Under the pieces are notes generated by a model. That model searched no databases. It worked only from the letters and a program-made list of their open reading frames with translations, and was not told the origin of the DNA. Below, in pieces: positions 13,918 through 22,817 of a DNA stretch of 64,000 nucleotides. Position 1 is the first letter of the stretch. Each line of letters begins with the position of its first letter. Position numbers and translations under genes: made by a program. The stretch lies in contig NZ_CP054932.1 in assembly GCF_013364275.1 (NCBI RefSeq), positions 7,440,001 through 7,504,000 on the forward strand, written 5' to 3'. The DNA comes from Actinomadura sp. NAK00032 (GTDB lineage: Bacteria; Actinomycetota; Actinomycetes; Streptosporangiales; Streptosporangiaceae).

Positions 13918-14730
13918 ATGGGGAAGGCCGACCGGCTCGATCCGGACAACAACCCGTGGCACTGGCTGGCCGTTGACCTGCGAATATGGCGCCTCGAACG
14001 CAACCTGTCACAGGCCCAGCTCGCCGAGATCCTGGGCGTCGACGATTCCACGGTTTCGAACTATGAATCGGGCACATCAAAAGTCCCCGAACGCAAGGCC
14101 GAAATTCTTGACCAGCTTTGGCGCACTCGCGGCCATTTTGCCCGAATTCACCGACACGCGGAGACTGTTCATGATCCGAACTGGTTCGACCAGTACACGC
14201 GGTACGAGCAGAGGGCCGAGGCGATCAGCGCCTACTCCGCGCTCGTCATACACGCGCTCTTCCAGACCGAGGACTACGCGCGGGCTCTGATCGAAGGGGC
14301 GCAGGTCGTCGACAACGTCGAGGAGACCGTCGCGGCCCGGATGGAGCGGCGGCAGGTCTGGGAGGCCGCCCATGCCCCCGAGTTCCGTCTATTCGTACGC
14401 CAGTCGGTTCTAGAGGATCCTGTGGGCGGGCCCGAAGTGATGCGGGCACAACTTGGTCACTTGCTGGACTTGAGCCAACGCAAGGGAGTCGTGGTGAGGG
14501 CTCTCCCAAAGGCGAAGGCCGCCCATGCAGGGGTCGACGGTTCGTTCGCGATCTTGAGGATCGGCCAGGCGGAACATGCCTGGTCACCCGCCGTCAACGG
14601 CGGGCGCCTGGTATCTGATCCGACGAAGGTCAGGGCGTACCGACTACGGTGGGATTTGATAGGGGATGATGCCCTGTCTCGAGACTCGACCCGGAGTCTC
14701 CTGCGTGAGCTTATGGAGGCCATGAAGTGA
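13918..14730 (+). CDS. WhiJ-like XRE regulator with DUF5753
   Basis: 270 aa. Residues 15-70 are an XRE-type helix-turn-helix (RNLSQAQLAEILGVDDSTVSNYESG), and the remainder is DUF5753 with HALFQTEDYARALI near residue 117, a FRLFVRQSVLEDPVGG segment, and the ending typical of the family. AAGGA lies upstream of ATG 13918. These proteins work with a small DUF397 partner, encoded here in the next gene through a GTGA overlap, as in the WhiJ/WhiJ-partner and BldB-like systems controlling differentiation. It is divergent from the RsbW-like gene. A second, diverged set lies at 54.5-56.6 kb. Confidence 0.88.
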   Translation: MGKADRLDPDNNPWHWLAVDLRIWRLERNLSQAQLAEILGVDDSTVSNYESGTSKVPERKAEILDQLWRTRGHFARIHRHAETVHDPNWFDQYTRYEQRAEAISAYSALVIHALFQTEDYARALIEGAQVVDNVEETVAARMERRQVWEAAHAPEFRLFVRQSVLEDPVGGPEVMRAQLGHLLDLSQRKGVVVRALPKAKAAHAGVDGSFAILRIGQAEHAWSPAVNGGRLVSDPTKVRAYRLRWDLIGDDALSRDSTRSLLRELMEAMK

Positions 14731-16031: not shown

Positions 16032-16211
16032 TCGTTCTCGGGGACGGCCGCGTCCGGTCGCCGGACTCGGACGACTGCCGCACGGCGCTGGAGGCCCTCG
16101 GGGCGGCGTCCACGGCCGCCCGCCTGCCGGTCACATTCAGGCTTTTGACCTGTATGAACGCGTCTCGCCTGGGGATGAGCGCTGCGGGTGACGGCCGGCA
16201 GGGGGCAGGAC

Positions 16212-17033
16212 ATGATCGAACGCGAGAAGGTGCGGCTGAGCGGGGTCGCGGAGACGACCTTGGCCACGCTGTACGGCAAGGCCGTAGCGAGTCGCGCGGC
16301 GGACCCGGTGCTGGTGGACCTGGACGCCGAGGGCGCCGTCGAACGTCTCGACTACGACTTCGCCCGGCTCGGCGTCTCCCGCGACTCCGCGCTGGCGATC
16401 GCGCTGCGCTCGGCCTACTTCGACCGCTGGACGCGCGAGGCGCTGTCCGACCACCCGGACGCGACCGTGCTGCATCTGGGATGCGGCCTGGACTGCCGCG
16501 CCCGGCGCGTGGATCCGCCGCCCGGCGTCCGCTGGTACGACGTCGACCGGCCGGAGGTCATCGAACTGCGCCGGCGGCTGTACGGGGAGCATCCCGGCCA
16601 CCACACGATCGGCGGCTCGGTCACCGACCCGCGATGGCTGGCACGAGTGCCCGCCGACCGTCCCGGCGTTGTCGTCGCCGAGGGCATGGTGCAGTACCTC
16701 ACCGAGGCCGAGGGAGTCGACCTGTTCACCAGAATCGTGGAACGGTTTCCCCGCGGCGTGGTCATGTTCGACGCGTGCAGTTCCCTGGCGATGCGGCTCG
16801 GCCGCCATCGAAAGGCGCTGCGGGCGACCGGGGCGAGGCCCGGAGGCTGGGGTATCGACGATCCCGCAACGGTCGAATCGCTGGTTCCAGGGCTGCGCCT
16901 CGGCAAGCAGCAGGCTTTCCTCGGCGTACCGGAGATGGCCCGTTTCGGCTGGCAGACGCGCCTGGCCGTCGCACTGACCAAACACTTTCCCGCCGCGCAA
17001 AAAACCGGACGCCTTGTACGTTACGACTTCTAG
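16212..17033 (+). CDS. LCM-type SAM-dependent O-methyltransferase
   Basis: 273 aa, class I methyltransferase of the leucine carboxyl methyltransferase family (COG3315 type). The SAM-binding motif I is VLHLGCGLDCRARRV, followed by WYDVDRPEVIELRR (motif II) and VVVAEGMVQYLTEAEG, all in the family order. Actinomycete relatives include O-methyltransferases of natural-product pathways. ATG 16212 is chosen for AGGGGGCAGG upstream; GTG 16188 is in frame but lacks a site. It is 169 bp upstream of a 52-aa peptide gene and two helical proteins on the same strand. A carboxyl methyltransferase would suit C-terminal capping of a peptide, though that link is only inference. Confidence 0.8.
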   Translation: MIEREKVRLSGVAETTLATLYGKAVASRAADPVLVDLDAEGAVERLDYDFARLGVSRDSALAIALRSAYFDRWTREALSDHPDATVLHLGCGLDCRARRVDPPPGVRWYDVDRPEVIELRRRLYGEHPGHHTIGGSVTDPRWLARVPADRPGVVVAEGMVQYLTEAEGVDLFTRIVERFPRGVVMFDACSSLAMRLGRHRKALRATGARPGGWGIDDPATVESLVPGLRLGKQQAFLGVPEMARFGWQTRLAVALTKHFPAAQKTGRLVRYDF

Positions 17034-17202
17034 CCTCGATCTTTTGTGACTCGGCCGTGGGATAGGCACCGGTCGCCGGGCGCAGCCTGCCTATTTTATA
17101 GAAATGCTTTAGGTGAGGCTCTGGAGAGGGCGGGTAGGAGGGCGGTCGGCCGTCCCTGATAAGGGGCGGCGCAACCAATCTCCGAATGGAAGGGAGCAGA
17201 GC

Positions 17203-17361
17203 ATGGAAATGACCATGGAGACGCCTCGGCCGCGGAAGACGGACCTGGCCGCCGAGGTGGAGCAGGCGACGGTCATGGCCGAGCTGATGCGCGGTGAAGC
17301 CCCGGTCAGCGGCGCCCCGCTCGAGGAGGAGCGGTGCGTGCCGCTCATCATCCTTCCTTGA
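17203..17361 (+). CDS. RiPP precursor-like peptide, 52 aa
   Basis: A 52-aa peptide with a strong ribosome site (AAGGGAGCAGAGC before ATG 17203). The N-terminal 44 residues are charged and Met-rich, with a helix AAEVEQATVMAELMRG, and resemble a leader. After GAPLEEER comes an abrupt hydrophobic end CVPLIILP, with the only cysteine of the peptide. The leader/core layout, size and place between a methyltransferase and two coupled helical proteins suggest a ribosomally made, modified peptide. No canonical lanthipeptide, lasso or thiopeptide enzyme is nearby. An AT-rich patch (TATTTTATAGA, 17092-17102) is the probable promoter. I know of no named family for it. Confidence 0.6.
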   Translation: MEMTMETPRPRKTDLAAEVEQATVMAELMRGEAPVSGAPLEEERCVPLIILP

Positions 17362-17383
17362 CCGACGAGGGAGCCGGCCGCCC

Positions 17384-18109
17384 ATGGCTGTGACGGGTCA
17401 CGCCCGAGCCGACTACGGGCGCGCGGCTGAGGAACTGGCCACCCGGGTTCCGCAGGTCCTGCACGGCCTGCGGGGCCCGGGCTGGCTGGCCGAGTTCGCC
17501 GCCGAGACGGCCGACCGCACGGCCGCGCTGGCGGCCGTGCGGATCCTGGACGTGGAGCTGCTGTCGGCGCATCTGCTCGGCGCTACTCCGCTGGGCGCGG
17601 CCGACACCGAGGTCTTGGAGCAGGCCTTGCACGTCTTCCCGCTGACCGGCGCGGACGGCGCGGCGGAGCGGCTGCGGCGCGCCCGGGACTGGGCGGTCGT
17701 GCGGCTGGCCGGTGACTGCGGCGCCGGCCTGGAGCCGGCCGCGCACATGGCCGGCCTGCCCCCGCCCGCCGCACCCGAGGAGGCGGAGGGCGGCGACTGG
17801 CACGCCTGGTCGTCGGCGCTGGCCGCGCTGGCGGCCCTGGCCGTCCCCGGTCTGGACAGCCCGCTGCACCGCGGCGCCGCCGCCGGCGGTCTCGCGATCG
17901 CCCGGGGCGCGACGCGGTCGGTGCTGCGCCGGGACCTTCCCGTCGCCGCCGCGCTGACCCGCTGGCTGGCACTGCCCGGCCACGACGCGCCGCCGCTGCG
18001 GACGGCGCTGCTGATCGAGCACATCACGGCATGCGACGGCACCCCGCGCACCGTCCTGCACCTGCGGATCGCCTCCCACCTGCTGGGCCGGACGGGAGGA
18101 CGGTCATGA
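17384..18109 (+). CDS. Helical protein of the peptide cluster, function unknown
   Basis: 241 aa, predicted mostly alpha-helical, Ala/Leu-rich without a signal peptide or clear membrane span. GAGGGAG precedes ATG 17384, 22 bp after the precursor-like gene, and the stop overlaps the next start as ATGA. Segments such as LEQALHVFPLTG, WAVVRLAGDCGAG and LTRWLALPGHD recall the helical-bundle layout of the downstream DUF6895-like protein, so the two may be distant paralogues forming a complex. I do not recognise a catalytic motif. Confidence 0.6.
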   Translation: MAVTGHARADYGRAAEELATRVPQVLHGLRGPGWLAEFAAETADRTAALAAVRILDVELLSAHLLGATPLGAADTEVLEQALHVFPLTGADGAAERLRRARDWAVVRLAGDCGAGLEPAAHMAGLPPPAAPEEAEGGDWHAWSSALAALAALAVPGLDSPLHRGAAAGGLAIARGATRSVLRRDLPVAAALTRWLALPGHDAPPLRTALLIEHITACDGTPRTVLHLRIASHLLGRTGGRS

Positions 18110-19017
18110 GGCGCGAGGCGGCCGCCACCGCACATCGGGTGCTGTGCGCGGGCCTCGGCTGGCTGCACAAGACCCGCACCGCGATGCCCGGAACGGAGCA
18201 CCTCGCGGACGGCCCGGCCTCGTTCCAGAAAGCGCTGGGCGAGATCGCGCTGTGCGCGTCCCTGGTGCGGCGCGAAGCGGTCACCGGTGCCGAGCAGACC
18301 CGGCAGGCCGGCGACCTGGTCGAGCACGCCTGGGCCCGGCTCGGCCACGGCGACCTGCTGTACGAGCGCGCGCTGCGCAATCCCCTGTTCACCGACCCGA
18401 TGGAGTCCTACGCCCACTTCGCCCGCGCGGGCCTGCGCCACGAGCGCCTGCGGGACCTGCTCGTCCACCAGTGCCGGCTCGGCATCTGGCAGACGGGCGA
18501 ACTCGTCCCCCACCACCGCTTGGCGGTCGCCAACGCGATGGAGACCCTCGCGCTGCCGCCCGACGGGCTGCCCCAGCCGCATTGGGCGTCGCTCACCGCG
18601 GCGACCTGGCTCGGCCAGACCCCGCCGCCCTGGGCCATCGACTGGGCCACCGCCTACGCCGTGACGCACACCGTCTTCCACGTCACCGACTGGGGCCGCG
18701 TTCCCGAGCGCATGCCAGCACCCGTGCGGGACTACCTGCGCGAATGGGTGCCGGTCTGGGTGCGGGTGTGGGCCGAGGTCGAGCAGTGGGACCTGGTCGC
18801 CGAACTCCTGGCCGCCGACGCCTGCCTGCACGAACCCGCCTGCCCGGCCGGGGACTGGGCCCTGCTGGCCGCCGCCCAGCAGGACGACGGAATGGTCCCC
18901 GCCGACGCCCGGACCTCGCATCACGACGATGACGAGCGGCATCTCCGGTCGCACCGGCACGCCACGATCGCCGGGGTGGTCGCCGCGACGCTCGCCCTGT
19001 CCCGCGCCCTGTCATGA
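18106..19017 (+). CDS. DUF6895-like helical protein
   Basis: 303 aa, translationally coupled to the preceding gene by ATGA. The sequence contains a THTVFHVTDWG motif near residue 186-196 that I associate with DUF6895 proteins of actinomycetes, together with HERLRDLLVHQCRLG and a run of amphipathic helices consistent with an alpha/alpha fold. The C-terminus has a His/Asp-rich stretch (SHHDDDERHLRSHRH), then a hydrophobic helix. Function is unknown; a role as maturase, cyclase or carrier for the upstream peptide is inference from the operon. The gene ends 18 bp from a convergent acetyltransferase. Confidence 0.6.
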   Translation: MRREAAATAHRVLCAGLGWLHKTRTAMPGTEHLADGPASFQKALGEIALCASLVRREAVTGAEQTRQAGDLVEHAWARLGHGDLLYERALRNPLFTDPMESYAHFARAGLRHERLRDLLVHQCRLGIWQTGELVPHHRLAVANAMETLALPPDGLPQPHWASLTAATWLGQTPPPWAIDWATAYAVTHTVFHVTDWGRVPERMPAPVRDYLREWVPVWVRVWAEVEQWDLVAELLAADACLHEPACPAGDWALLAAAQQDDGMVPADARTSHHDDDERHLRSHRHATIAGVVAATLALSRALS

Positions 19018-19035: not shown

Positions 19036-19596
19036 TCAGCCCGCGGTCGTCGCCGCCACGGCCGGCTCGCCCGCGGTGTCGGCGGCCTCGGGACGAAGGA
19101 TGCTGAACATCAGGCAATCGCGCCATTGGCCGGCCCGGAAGGTATAGCCGCGCAGCAGCCCTTCCTGGACGAAACCCATCTTCTCGCACACCCGCTGCGA
19201 GGCGATGTTGCCGACCTCGACGGCGGCTTCGATCCGGTGGACGGGGCTGCAGTCGAACAGGTAGCGGACCAGGAGGCCGAGGGTCTCGGCGGCGTAACCG
19301 CGACCTCGCGCGGCCGGGAGCGACAGACCCGCGATCCGCCAGCAGAACGCCGCCGGACTGGTCGGTACCCGCGTCCAGCTCACCATGCACAGCGGCCCGT
19401 CGTCGCCCTCCGCCATCAGGGCGCCCCGCTCGTCCGACATCAGGCCGTCGCGCTCCCATTCCCGCCGCAGCCGGTGCCGGTCCCGCCAGCCGTACCACTC
19501 GAACGGCGCCATGACCGCGGGATCGCTGATCGCCCTCTCCAACTCGGCGACGTCCTCGGCGTCGACCTGGCGCAGCCGCACCCGAGCAGTTGTCAC
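19036..19596 (-). CDS. GNAT-family N-acetyltransferase
   Basis: 186 aa, RimJ/RimL-like (Acetyltransf_3). It shows an LRQVDAEDVAELERAI start, the acetyl-CoA-binding region AARGRGYAAETLGLLVRYLF and the end IASQRVCEKMGFVQEGLLRGY typical of this family. GTG 19596 is preferred because GGGGG sits five bases upstream; longer in-frame starts lack one. It transfers an acetyl group to an amine, substrate unknown. Although convergent, its closeness (18 bp) to the peptide cluster leaves open a role in modification or self-protection. Confidence 0.8.
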   Translation of the reverse strand: MTTARVRLRQVDAEDVAELERAISDPAVMAPFEWYGWRDRHRLRREWERDGLMSDERGALMAEGDDGPLCMVSWTRVPTSPAAFCWRIAGLSLPAARGRGYAAETLGLLVRYLFDCSPVHRIEAAVEVGNIASQRVCEKMGFVQEGLLRGYTFRAGQWRDCLMFSILRPEAADTAGEPAVAATTAG

Positions 19597-19793
19597 CACA
19601 GCCCCCTTTCCTTCCCTCGCTTCCCCCTTACCCGCTGCCCGCATTTAATGACAGTCGGTAATTGACTAATCACCGGCCGCGCCTTCGCCTACACGTCACT
19701 TGCTCTTGAGTGAGTCTTCGCGTCCGGCGGGTGGGGGTTTCACCGGGGACGGGCCATGATCAGCGGGCTGGTCTTCCGTTGAGAGGGGCGTCG

Positions 19794-22043: not shown

Positions 22044-22817
22044 TCAGGACTTCTTGTCCTGGTGGCGTTTGTCGCGGACGTACATGATGGCCGCCTTGCC
22101 GTCGCCGGGGCTGCGGCGCTCCAGGACGAACAGCGTCGTCGCGGTGATCAGCTCGCTCAGCTTGGCGTAGCCGTAGTTGCGGGAGTCGAACTCGGGGCGC
22201 TGCTTGGTGATGATGTGGCCGACGGACGCCAGCGGGGCCCATCCGTCCTCGTCGGAGGCCGCCTCGACGGCGTTGCGCAGCAGGTTGACGAGCGCGGTGT
22301 CCTGCTTGAGCTTGGCGGCCGGCGTCGGCGGCGCGGGCTTCAGCGCCGTCACGGTGGGCGCGGCCGAGCCCTGGTCGTAGGCGAGGTTCTCGATGTAGAT
22401 GAACTTGTCGCACGCCGCCACGAACGGTTTGGGCGTCTTGCGTTCCCCGAACCCGTAGACGGTGAGCCCGGACTCCCGGATCCGCGCCGCCAGCCGGGTG
22501 AAGTCGCTGTCGCTGGAGACGATGCAGAACCCGTCGAAGCGGTCGGAGTACAGCAGGTCCATCGCGTCGATGACCATCGCCGCGTCCGTGGCGTTCTTGC
22601 CGGAGGTGTAGGCGAACTGCTGGATCGGCTGGATCGACTGGTCGAGCAGGTGTTCCTTCCAGCCGCGCAGGTTCGTTCCCGTCCAGTCGCCGTAGGCGCG
22701 TTTGACGTGCGCGGTCCCGTACTTGGCGACCTCGGCCAGCAGTCCCTCGACGACTCCGGGCTGCGCGTTGTCGGCGTCGATGAGCACCGCCAGCCGGGCG
22801 GTGTTCTCGTTCACCAT
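22044..22817 (-). CDS. NYN/LabA-type PIN ribonuclease with OST-HTH domain
   Basis: 257 aa. The N-terminal 150 residues are a NYN domain: VLIDADNAQPG with the first acidic residues, KNATDAAMVIDAMDLLYSD and CIVSSDSDFTRLAARIRESG with the rest of the metal site. After a Pro-rich linker the C-terminal 80 residues resemble an OST-HTH/LOTUS RNA-binding domain (WAPLASVGHIITKQRPEFDSRNYGYAKLSELI). The set suggests an RNA-binding nuclease of small RNA or rRNA/tRNA processing type. ATG 22817 is the start. Convergent with the SEC-C gene, 3 bp apart. Confidence 0.85.
   Translation of the reverse strand: MVNENTARLAVLIDADNAQPGVVEGLLAEVAKYGTAHVKRAYGDWTGTNLRGWKEHLLDQSIQPIQQFAYTSGKNATDAAMVIDAMDLLYSDRFDGFCIVSSDSDFTRLAARIRESGLTVYGFGERKTPKPFVAACDKFIYIENLAYDQGSAAPTVTALKPAPPTPAAKLKQDTALVNLLRNAVEAASDEDGWAPLASVGHIITKQRPEFDSRNYGYAKLSELITATTLFVLERRSPGDGKAAIMYVRDKRHQDKKS

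Follow-up and report, generated by a model that had tools for sequence, protein, structure and literature searches.

A candidate RiPP cassette built around DUF6895 in actinobacteria and its divergent, reduced form in Actinomadura sp. NAK00032

In the genome of Actinomadura sp. NAK00032, four consecutive forward-strand genes at positions 16212–19017 of a 64,000-nucleotide stretch (contig NZ_CP054932.1, positions 7,440,001 to 7,504,000; hereafter the window) code for an LCM-type methyltransferase, a peptide of 52 residues, a helical protein without a family name (hereafter protein B) and a DUF6895 protein. A first-pass annotation, made from the sequence without database searches, had described this row, all of whose members are present as open reading frames (ORFs) or Pfam matches, and had taken it for an undescribed cluster for a ribosomally synthesized and post-translationally modified peptide (RiPP) with a Cys-hydrophobic core. 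The locus thus raises the question of whether the short ORF is indeed the precursor of a RiPP and, if so, what kind of pathway the proteins around it constitute. We consider it moderately probable that the window holds a divergent and reduced member of a widespread actinobacterial RiPP cassette, comprising a precursor, protein B, one or two DUF6895 proteins and usually an S12 hydrolase, in which DUF6895 acts as an epimerase.

The evidence carrying this reading begins with the conservation of the row. Searching GTDB genomes with only the DUF6895 protein as query recovered eight loci (Actinomadura sp. KC216, five Saccharothrix, one Lentzea and one Streptomyces), and in all eight a short ORF, protein B and DUF6895 are consecutive. 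Upstream DNA is available for 142 of the 146 non-identical B loci (all but L029–L032), and the short ORF precedes B in 141 of these: 136 were matched by profile and five, with a divergent ORF (L110, L202, L203, L208 and L210), were found by eye, leaving L101 as the only locus without a precursor. Loci with identical first 300 bases of B had been dropped; the remaining ones may be close relatives, so that the counts do not represent independent events. The two precursor profiles were seeded from 92 loci by simple patterns, the remaining 44 of the 136 matched loci being non-seeds. The scan covered both strands from −600 to +250, yet each of the 136 matched segments is coding-strand sequence immediately 5' of B. 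The row hence displays the general hallmark of RiPP systems, a short precursor gene conserved beside genes for modifying enzymes, and the first-pass annotation, which had staked its proposal on the conservation of the short ORF beside DUF6895 genes, is borne out on this point.

The cassette is not a private oddity of the window; it represents a large actinobacterial family, apparently unnamed. Using the Pfam model, DUF6895 was found in at least 151 of 343 genomes of one genus, inferred to be Streptomyces (149 over the cut-off), in 5 of 59 relatives and, in a sample of the phylum, in at least 7 of 396 genomes (6 of them over the family cut-off), the window genome being counted in the latter two. 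Within the window's genus, a DUF6895 alignment (A2) detected it in 6 of the 65 genomes, again including its own, and protein B is present in at least 36 of 297 genomes from the family to which the Lentzea genome belongs. Only the best candidates per genome were scored (five in the phylum sample, six in the 343-genome genus and eight in the search for B), and these counts are accordingly lower bounds. Among loci of the inferred Streptomyces genus selected by DUF6895, B is present in 98 of 104; the six without it are L048 and L094 (upstream sequence cut), L084 (B split over two frames), and L103, L218 and L219. The last three contain a separate DUF6895 subfamily located after a protein of 65–87 residues with the motif ..RKAL[DE]FL[RQ]TSGLV.L..PLE.., and neither B nor S12 was matched there. 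Two loci, L101 with its lost precursor and L084 (2373–3117) with its split B, are apparently decaying cassettes. Further afield, a DUF6895-like gene with 28.9% identity to the window protein is encoded by a betaproteobacterium, on the Cupriavidus oxalaticus plasmid NZ_CP038636.1 (L225, 5099–6897); a 125-residue ORF precedes it, in which no resemblance to the actinobacterial precursors was seen.

The window precursor (MEMTMETPRPRKTDLAAEVEQATVMAELMRGEAPVSGAPLEEERCVPLIILP) is encoded at 17203–17361, with a ribosome-binding-site-like sequence, GGAAGGGAG (17188–17196), 6 bases 5' of its ATG in both the window and KC216. A type I precursor profile built from the other loci, without the window and KC216, ranks its segment first among all six-frame segments in a 12-kb stretch (E 7.8e-4, with the runner-up at E 0.075) and scores the KC216 precursor (METNTKMSQVQEQQAAAVPVEASPAAVLAELVLEEAPVSGAPREEKQSPQLIVP) at E 0.0061. 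On this sequence evidence the short ORF is more than chance. RefSeq, for its part, lists the short ORF as a 'hypothetical' coding sequence in S. fungicidicus p1 and K. fiedleri plasmid 2. Common to the precursors are a motif centred on Glu and a stretch rich in Leu, usually with a charged tail rich in Pro as well; those of the other relatives first recovered (Saccharothrix, Lentzea and Streptomyces) resemble MSAQTVVRPVATPEEQAVLHELMAEPEAAISDAPLYSPQSAGLLLLGLLLSPEVPKEPKDK. Type I cassettes (61 loci by profile) have one DUF6895 and precursors ending like ALMAEPEAPVSDAPLYTPEAAGFLLALLLLSPKEPKEPRGK; type II cassettes (75 loci) mostly have two in tandem and precursors ending like IEAALDPAEPDGVFRDSRECAALALLSADTKLLLSPPTPRPKKG; and a rarer third form with a longer C-terminus is seen in L084, L110, L207, L208 and L210. 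In 59 distinct type I peptides the conserved elements are the Glu-centred motif ending S-D-A-P, the Leu-rich stretch and Pro residues, with the Glu (59), the Pro after SDA (57) and a tail Pro (59) nearly fixed, and in 69 distinct type II peptides the nearly fixed positions are G69, R69, D67, C62, S66 and P66. The window peptide combines a type I leader (AELMRGEAPVSGAPL) with a short, tailless C-terminus. Its residues 32–40 (17296–17322), EAPVSGAPL, align with EAPVSDAPLY-like stretches of other precursors and may constitute a recognition or junction motif.

The C-terminal CVPLIILP (17335–17358), upon which the first-pass annotation had placed its weight, is a putative core whose Cys is not conserved: the KC216 precursor ends ..EEKQSPQLIVP, and the type I precursors conserve the other features noted above. 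We hence rejected a conserved Cys-x-Pro core, given the KC216 peptide without Cys. While Cys is frequent in type II (62 of 69), no evidence was seen that the window Cys occupies the corresponding position. As for the possibility, likewise raised in that annotation, that the tail residues evolve freely, the tails are conserved family-wide, whereas the window and KC216 precursors are identical at just 23 of 51 positions with a ratio of nonsynonymous to synonymous divergence (dN/dS) of 0.81, over only 37 synonymous sites. Across the family, median dN/dS is 0.56 for type I and 0.51 for type II, from pairs filtered at 0.1 < pS < 0.7 and pN < 0.5 (1374 of 1711 type I and 2231 of 2346 type II pairs kept), values indicative of purifying selection on the precursor.

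The conservation of the tail could also be read differently. The PQQ (pyrroloquinoline quinone) and mycofactocin pathways each make one nearly fixed peptide-derived molecule, and the cassette might similarly furnish a signal or cofactor, rather than an antibiotic, with the tail forming part of the product. The almost invariant type II C-terminus LLLSPPTPRPKKG (tail columns P69, P68, R68, P67 and K68 of the 69 distinct peptides) would fit such a product, as would the paucity of accessory genes: among ORFs of at least 100 residues near 85 cassettes, no additional family recurs in more than 20 loci. However, the type I tails and the hydrophobic stretch are more variable, the window and KC216 are without the tail altogether, and a conserved tail is equally expected of a follower recognized by an enzyme; we therefore judge this alternative unlikely, though with some real chance of being right. 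The most frequent of the extra families, found in 20 of 45 type II loci, comprises secreted alpha-lytic-type proteases encoded convergently to the row; the gene converges with that of S12, for instance, in L144 (6217–7602, with CBM5/12) and L223 (5947–7317), and the protease is possibly part of the pathway.

The first-pass annotation overlooked a usual member of the cassette, the S12 (beta-lactamase-fold) hydrolase. Where more than 3.3 kb is available downstream of B, it follows DUF6895 in 80 of 82 loci, the window and L216 being the two without it. These 82 are drawn from 141 loci; of the 59 with shorter downstream sequence, 26 show S12 and 33 do not, and among the latter is KC216, where a GNAT gene lies 21 bases past DUF6895, leaving no adjacent S12. 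Two cassette copies match PF00144 at 1.3e-57 and 2.6e-53, and the SxxK, YSN and H-[SG]-G motifs of S12 enzymes are retained in seven aligned copies. The PDB relatives of one cassette S12 include ClbP, alkaline D-peptidase and DD-carboxypeptidases, with class C beta-lactamases scoring higher. Because S12 enzymes include peptidases that need a D-residue, the presence of S12 beside a presumed epimerase is telling.

The window, like its nearest relative KC216, has neither an S12 gene in the row nor the charged, Pro-rich tail that in the common form comes after the Leu-rich stretch, its peptide ending ..PLIILP; S12 genes elsewhere in the genome are all distant (best E 8.2e-27, 95.6 bits, profile A3), as against 6e-32 (a partial copy) to 1e-174 for cassette S12 copies with a related profile. 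The row instead has an additional member at its other end, where the LCM-type (leucine carboxyl methyltransferase family) S-adenosylmethionine methyltransferase (16212–17033; PF04072 at E 9.8e-15 and 55.4 bits, over the Pfam gathering score of 22.3 bits; TIGR00027 at 56.2 bits, under the cut-off of 93.55), a proposed tailoring enzyme, stands beside B in the window and KC216 only, among 84 loci with at least 1.2 kb upstream. Its two copies are identical at 207 of 281 positions. Thus, in the window/KC216 branch S12 and the tail are absent together and the methyltransferase is present. All of this probably reflects a single event in two relatives, a pattern that is suggestive and falls short of proof; L216, with no S12 and a Pro/Ala-rich ending, is perhaps a second such event, and G802, of the window's genus, retains both S12 and an acidic tail.

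One might instead take the window copy for a cassette in decay that, with S12 and the tail gone, makes no product any more; the lack of S12 in the row, the distant nature of the S12 genes elsewhere in the genome and the fast divergence of the precursor would all be in keeping with this. Yet purifying selection acts on the methyltransferase, B and DUF6895, as judged by comparing the window with KC216 (dN/dS of 0.29, 0.40 and 0.44, respectively), the row is kept in both genomes and the invariant polar residues of DUF6895 are retained, making decay a very unlikely account.

To which known class might such a cassette belong? It fails the gene-content tests run for the lasso (B2), lanthipeptide (LanC) and YcaO classes. 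Matches to the family of the transglutaminase-like lasso leader peptidase B2 (PF13471) in the genome are only at 3,473,492 and 5,746,954, with none within 1.7 Mb of the row (7,456,212–7,459,017); the nearest LanC (PF05147) match is at 5,984,851, about 1.47 Mb from the row; and the single YcaO match is at 3,804,959, with none in the cluster. An Asn-synthetase-like cyclase C was not seen among 15 window proteins scanned with Pfam, the peptide included and the rest of the window being unscanned; nor was a radical SAM enzyme among the same 15, no search having been aimed at that family. The first-pass statement that the standard maturases are absent consequently stands for lasso-B2-type, LanC-type and YcaO genes, none of which lies within 1.4 Mb, and extends for radical SAM only to the scanned proteins, that family not having been searched genome-wide.

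DUF6895 itself does occur in other RiPP settings. In L033 (9637–13263, genome G036), it is part of a lasso-type cluster along with a B2-like protein (Transglut_core3 at 1.3e-10; 32.5 bits versus an NCBIfam cut-off of 33) and with a small B1-like and an Asn-synthetase-like ORF, both named by eye. In L034 (8799–19890, genome G006), it lies about 6 kb from a full LanB dehydratase (Pfam, 6e-155), and L035 (genome G019) shows a similar arrangement, about 6 kb from a LanB-type gene, the Pfam test having been made in L034 only; both loci are from the window's own genus, and in both DUF6895 is next to a 236-residue helical-looking protein without a Pfam match. A DUF6895 (PF21836) protein is, moreover, called a lasso-peptide epimerase in the title of Shi et al. 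(ACS Catal. 2026, 16, 1757; via PMC13352647). This lasso setting might prompt the view that the window row is a lasso peptide cluster with its remaining genes elsewhere; with no B2-type gene within 1.7 Mb and no additional family, among the ORFs of at least 100 residues near 85 cassettes, in more than 20 loci, we deem that extremely improbable. As far as the title of Shi et al. discloses, the window protein shares its family with that epimerase, and its row differs in having no nearby lasso B2 and in having protein B and, in other loci, S12. Most simply, DUF6895 would invert residues in RiPP precursors that are unrelated to one another, and B would be a partner peculiar to this cassette. In a limited full-text search of the open-access literature, with subscription journals mostly outside its scope, no description of the cassette was found. 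It would hence appear to be an undescribed RiPP class around an already reported epimerase family: the RiPP-like character advanced in the first-pass annotation is supported, and the epimerase named, at least in a title, from the same family had been overlooked there.

The window DUF6895 protein (18106–19017; PF21836 at 1.3e-71, 241.8 bits over residues 17–295, over the gathering score of 23.8 bits) is modeled as an alpha/alpha toroid (pLDDT 82.7, two of the five models being poor). Among the 50 matches listed for this model VIA-align Z ranges from 13.6 to 17.5, with a polysaccharide lyase at 17.5, cellobiose 2-epimerase (5zig) at 16.6 (276 aligned residues), squalene-hopene cyclase at 16.3 and GlcNAc 2-epimerase (1fp3) at 15.3 (270 aligned), both epimerases being alpha/alpha toroids with a root-mean-square deviation (rmsd) of 3.8. 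These two are sugar enzymes with 9–10% identity to DUF6895, and lyases, glycosidases and terpene cyclases score equally well; the toroid is a common fold, which, if the model is right, is compatible with acid-base chemistry and is not diagnostic of it. H188 and D229 are kept in all 216 distinct DUF6895 sequences, E46 and E233 in 215 and H285 in 212; 211 of the sequences come from loci with B and the other five from L048 (two), L084, L094 and L219. The same five residues recur in four added DUF6895 proteins, one lasso-type, two LanB-type and one other.

Protein B (17384–18109; 241 residues), a proposed partner of DUF6895, starts 22 bases past the precursor stop, and its gene overlaps that of DUF6895 by ATGA. 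It has no Pfam or NCBIfam match at E 1, and A51, R53, R182, R193 and W194 are invariant in 140 distinct sequences. Its all-helical model (pLDDT 83.6) gave a best Foldseek E of 0.54 and a best VIA-align Z of 8.4 (225 aligned, rmsd 4.6, a GH154 toroid), within chance for helical models. That B is itself a relative of DUF6895 is unsupported (hhalign probability 0.1 with nine rows each, and 0.1 with 140 B versus 216 DUF6895 plus the four added sequences). LanC structures are not among the matches listed for either model, which excludes nothing. Nor is a role in defense supported, with no PADLOC match for five proteins at E 0.1.

The nearness of the DUF6895 model to polysaccharide lyases, glycoside hydrolases and terpene cyclases, as much as to epimerases, would sit well with the short protein being a small stable subunit or regulator of a B–DUF6895 complex that acts on another substrate, such as a terpene, a sugar or the cell wall. 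This is quite unlikely in our estimation, as DUF6895 is also found within a lasso-type cluster and close to a LanB gene, the precursor's conserved motif followed by a hydrophobic stretch resembles a leader–core architecture, and the title of Shi et al. (via PMC13352647) names a DUF6895 protein a peptide epimerase. Returning to the epimerase reading, several known enzymes merit comparison. MslH, the other lasso-peptide epimerase considered here, has a calcineurin-like fold that differs from the DUF6895 model. As described in PMC10406935, this enzyme of lasso peptide MS-271 epimerizes a residue of a RiPP precursor, the very reaction proposed for DUF6895, and is metal-dependent. With respect to S12, penicillin-binding-protein-type thioesterases such as SurE have the S12 fold and close peptide rings at a D-residue, acting on nonribosomal peptides. 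They offer a possible model for the cassette S12, where cyclization would be hypothetical. ClbP and other D-Asn prodrug peptidases belong to the S12 serine peptidases and require a D-residue in the natural product that they help to mature, ClbP being highly specific for D-asparagine, to go by the relevant statements in PMC9889268. According to the same source, ClbP is membrane-anchored and acts on precolibactin, which is not a ribosomal peptide; the window row, for its part, is without any S12.

Taken together, we advance the following plausible mechanism. The short peptide would be the substrate of the cassette enzymes, and DUF6895, a predicted toroid with invariant His and Asp, might invert the alpha-carbon of one or more residues in its hydrophobic C-terminal part, with B binding the precursor or steadying DUF6895. 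In the common form, S12 might then act at the new D-residue, either cutting off the Pro-rich tail or closing a ring; such D-gated processing is proposed because S12 neighbors a presumed epimerase and because ClbP, alkaline D-peptidase and DD-carboxypeptidases are among the S12 enzymes. In the window, S12 would not be needed since the tail is already absent from the gene, and the LCM-type enzyme probably methylates the free C-terminus or another site. Should this hold, stereo-inversion would gate processing in a very common RiPP class, with DUF6895 and B making D-residues in the Leu-rich stretch and S12 cutting or cyclizing past a Pro-rich follower; the window would then be a shortcut that lost follower and S12 together and gained a methyltransferase. 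This wider proposal we offer tentatively, as something possible rather than probable.

Several observations weigh against the epimerase-based cassette as we read it. The epimerase assignment draws on the title of the 2026 report and on a modeled fold common to unrelated enzymes; no Foldseek match of the DUF6895 model falls below E 0.05, and Z values of 14–17 are only somewhat over the chance level for helical models. H192 is kept in 212 of the 216 sequences; the lasso-type DUF6895 has Tyr in its place and the LanB-type has Ala. The D-specificity of the cassette S12 is a trait of the superfamily and not a finding, its nearest NCBIfam relatives being AmpH and class C beta-lactamases, all far under their cut-offs. 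Peptide methylation is a guess from a family name, and the methyltransferase is in the row in two genomes only. Most RiPPs have a variable core, whereas the C-termini of type II precursors hardly vary, and the window precursor diverges fast from that of KC216 (the dN/dS of 0.81 given above). Finally, the chemistry as a whole is predicted from genes.

At the margins of the row, the methyltransferase ORF is open from a GTG at 16188, and comparison with KC216 (MIEREKVRLSG versus MMEREKVRLSG) favors the ATG at 16212 as its likely start. A scan for sigma-70-type promoters found none, and two weak terminator-like sites lie at 17077–17092. On the opposite strand is a convergent GNAT acetyltransferase (19036–19599; Acetyltransf_3 at 5.5e-17), whose stop at 19036 is, as the first-pass annotation had it, 18 bases from the DUF6895 gene. 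GNAT adjoins DUF6895 in KC216 too and has 80% identity over 117 residues in L009; a role for it in the pathway is not supported. Elsewhere in the window, an XRE-type regulator with DUF5753 (13918–14730) is encoded upstream of the row, and a NYN nuclease-like domain is fused to OST-HTH/LOTUS at 22044–22817 on the reverse strand.

If the favored reading is true, about 44% of the sampled genomes of one genus, the inferred Streptomyces (DUF6895 in at least 151 of 343), and at least 36 of 297 genomes of another family, as gauged by B, would contain a three- to five-gene peptide pathway that has so far gone unread. The cassette would then provide a small system for peptides with D-amino acids, a substrate rule for DUF6895 and a case, amenable to reconstruction in E. 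coli, of an S12 enzyme gated by a D-residue.

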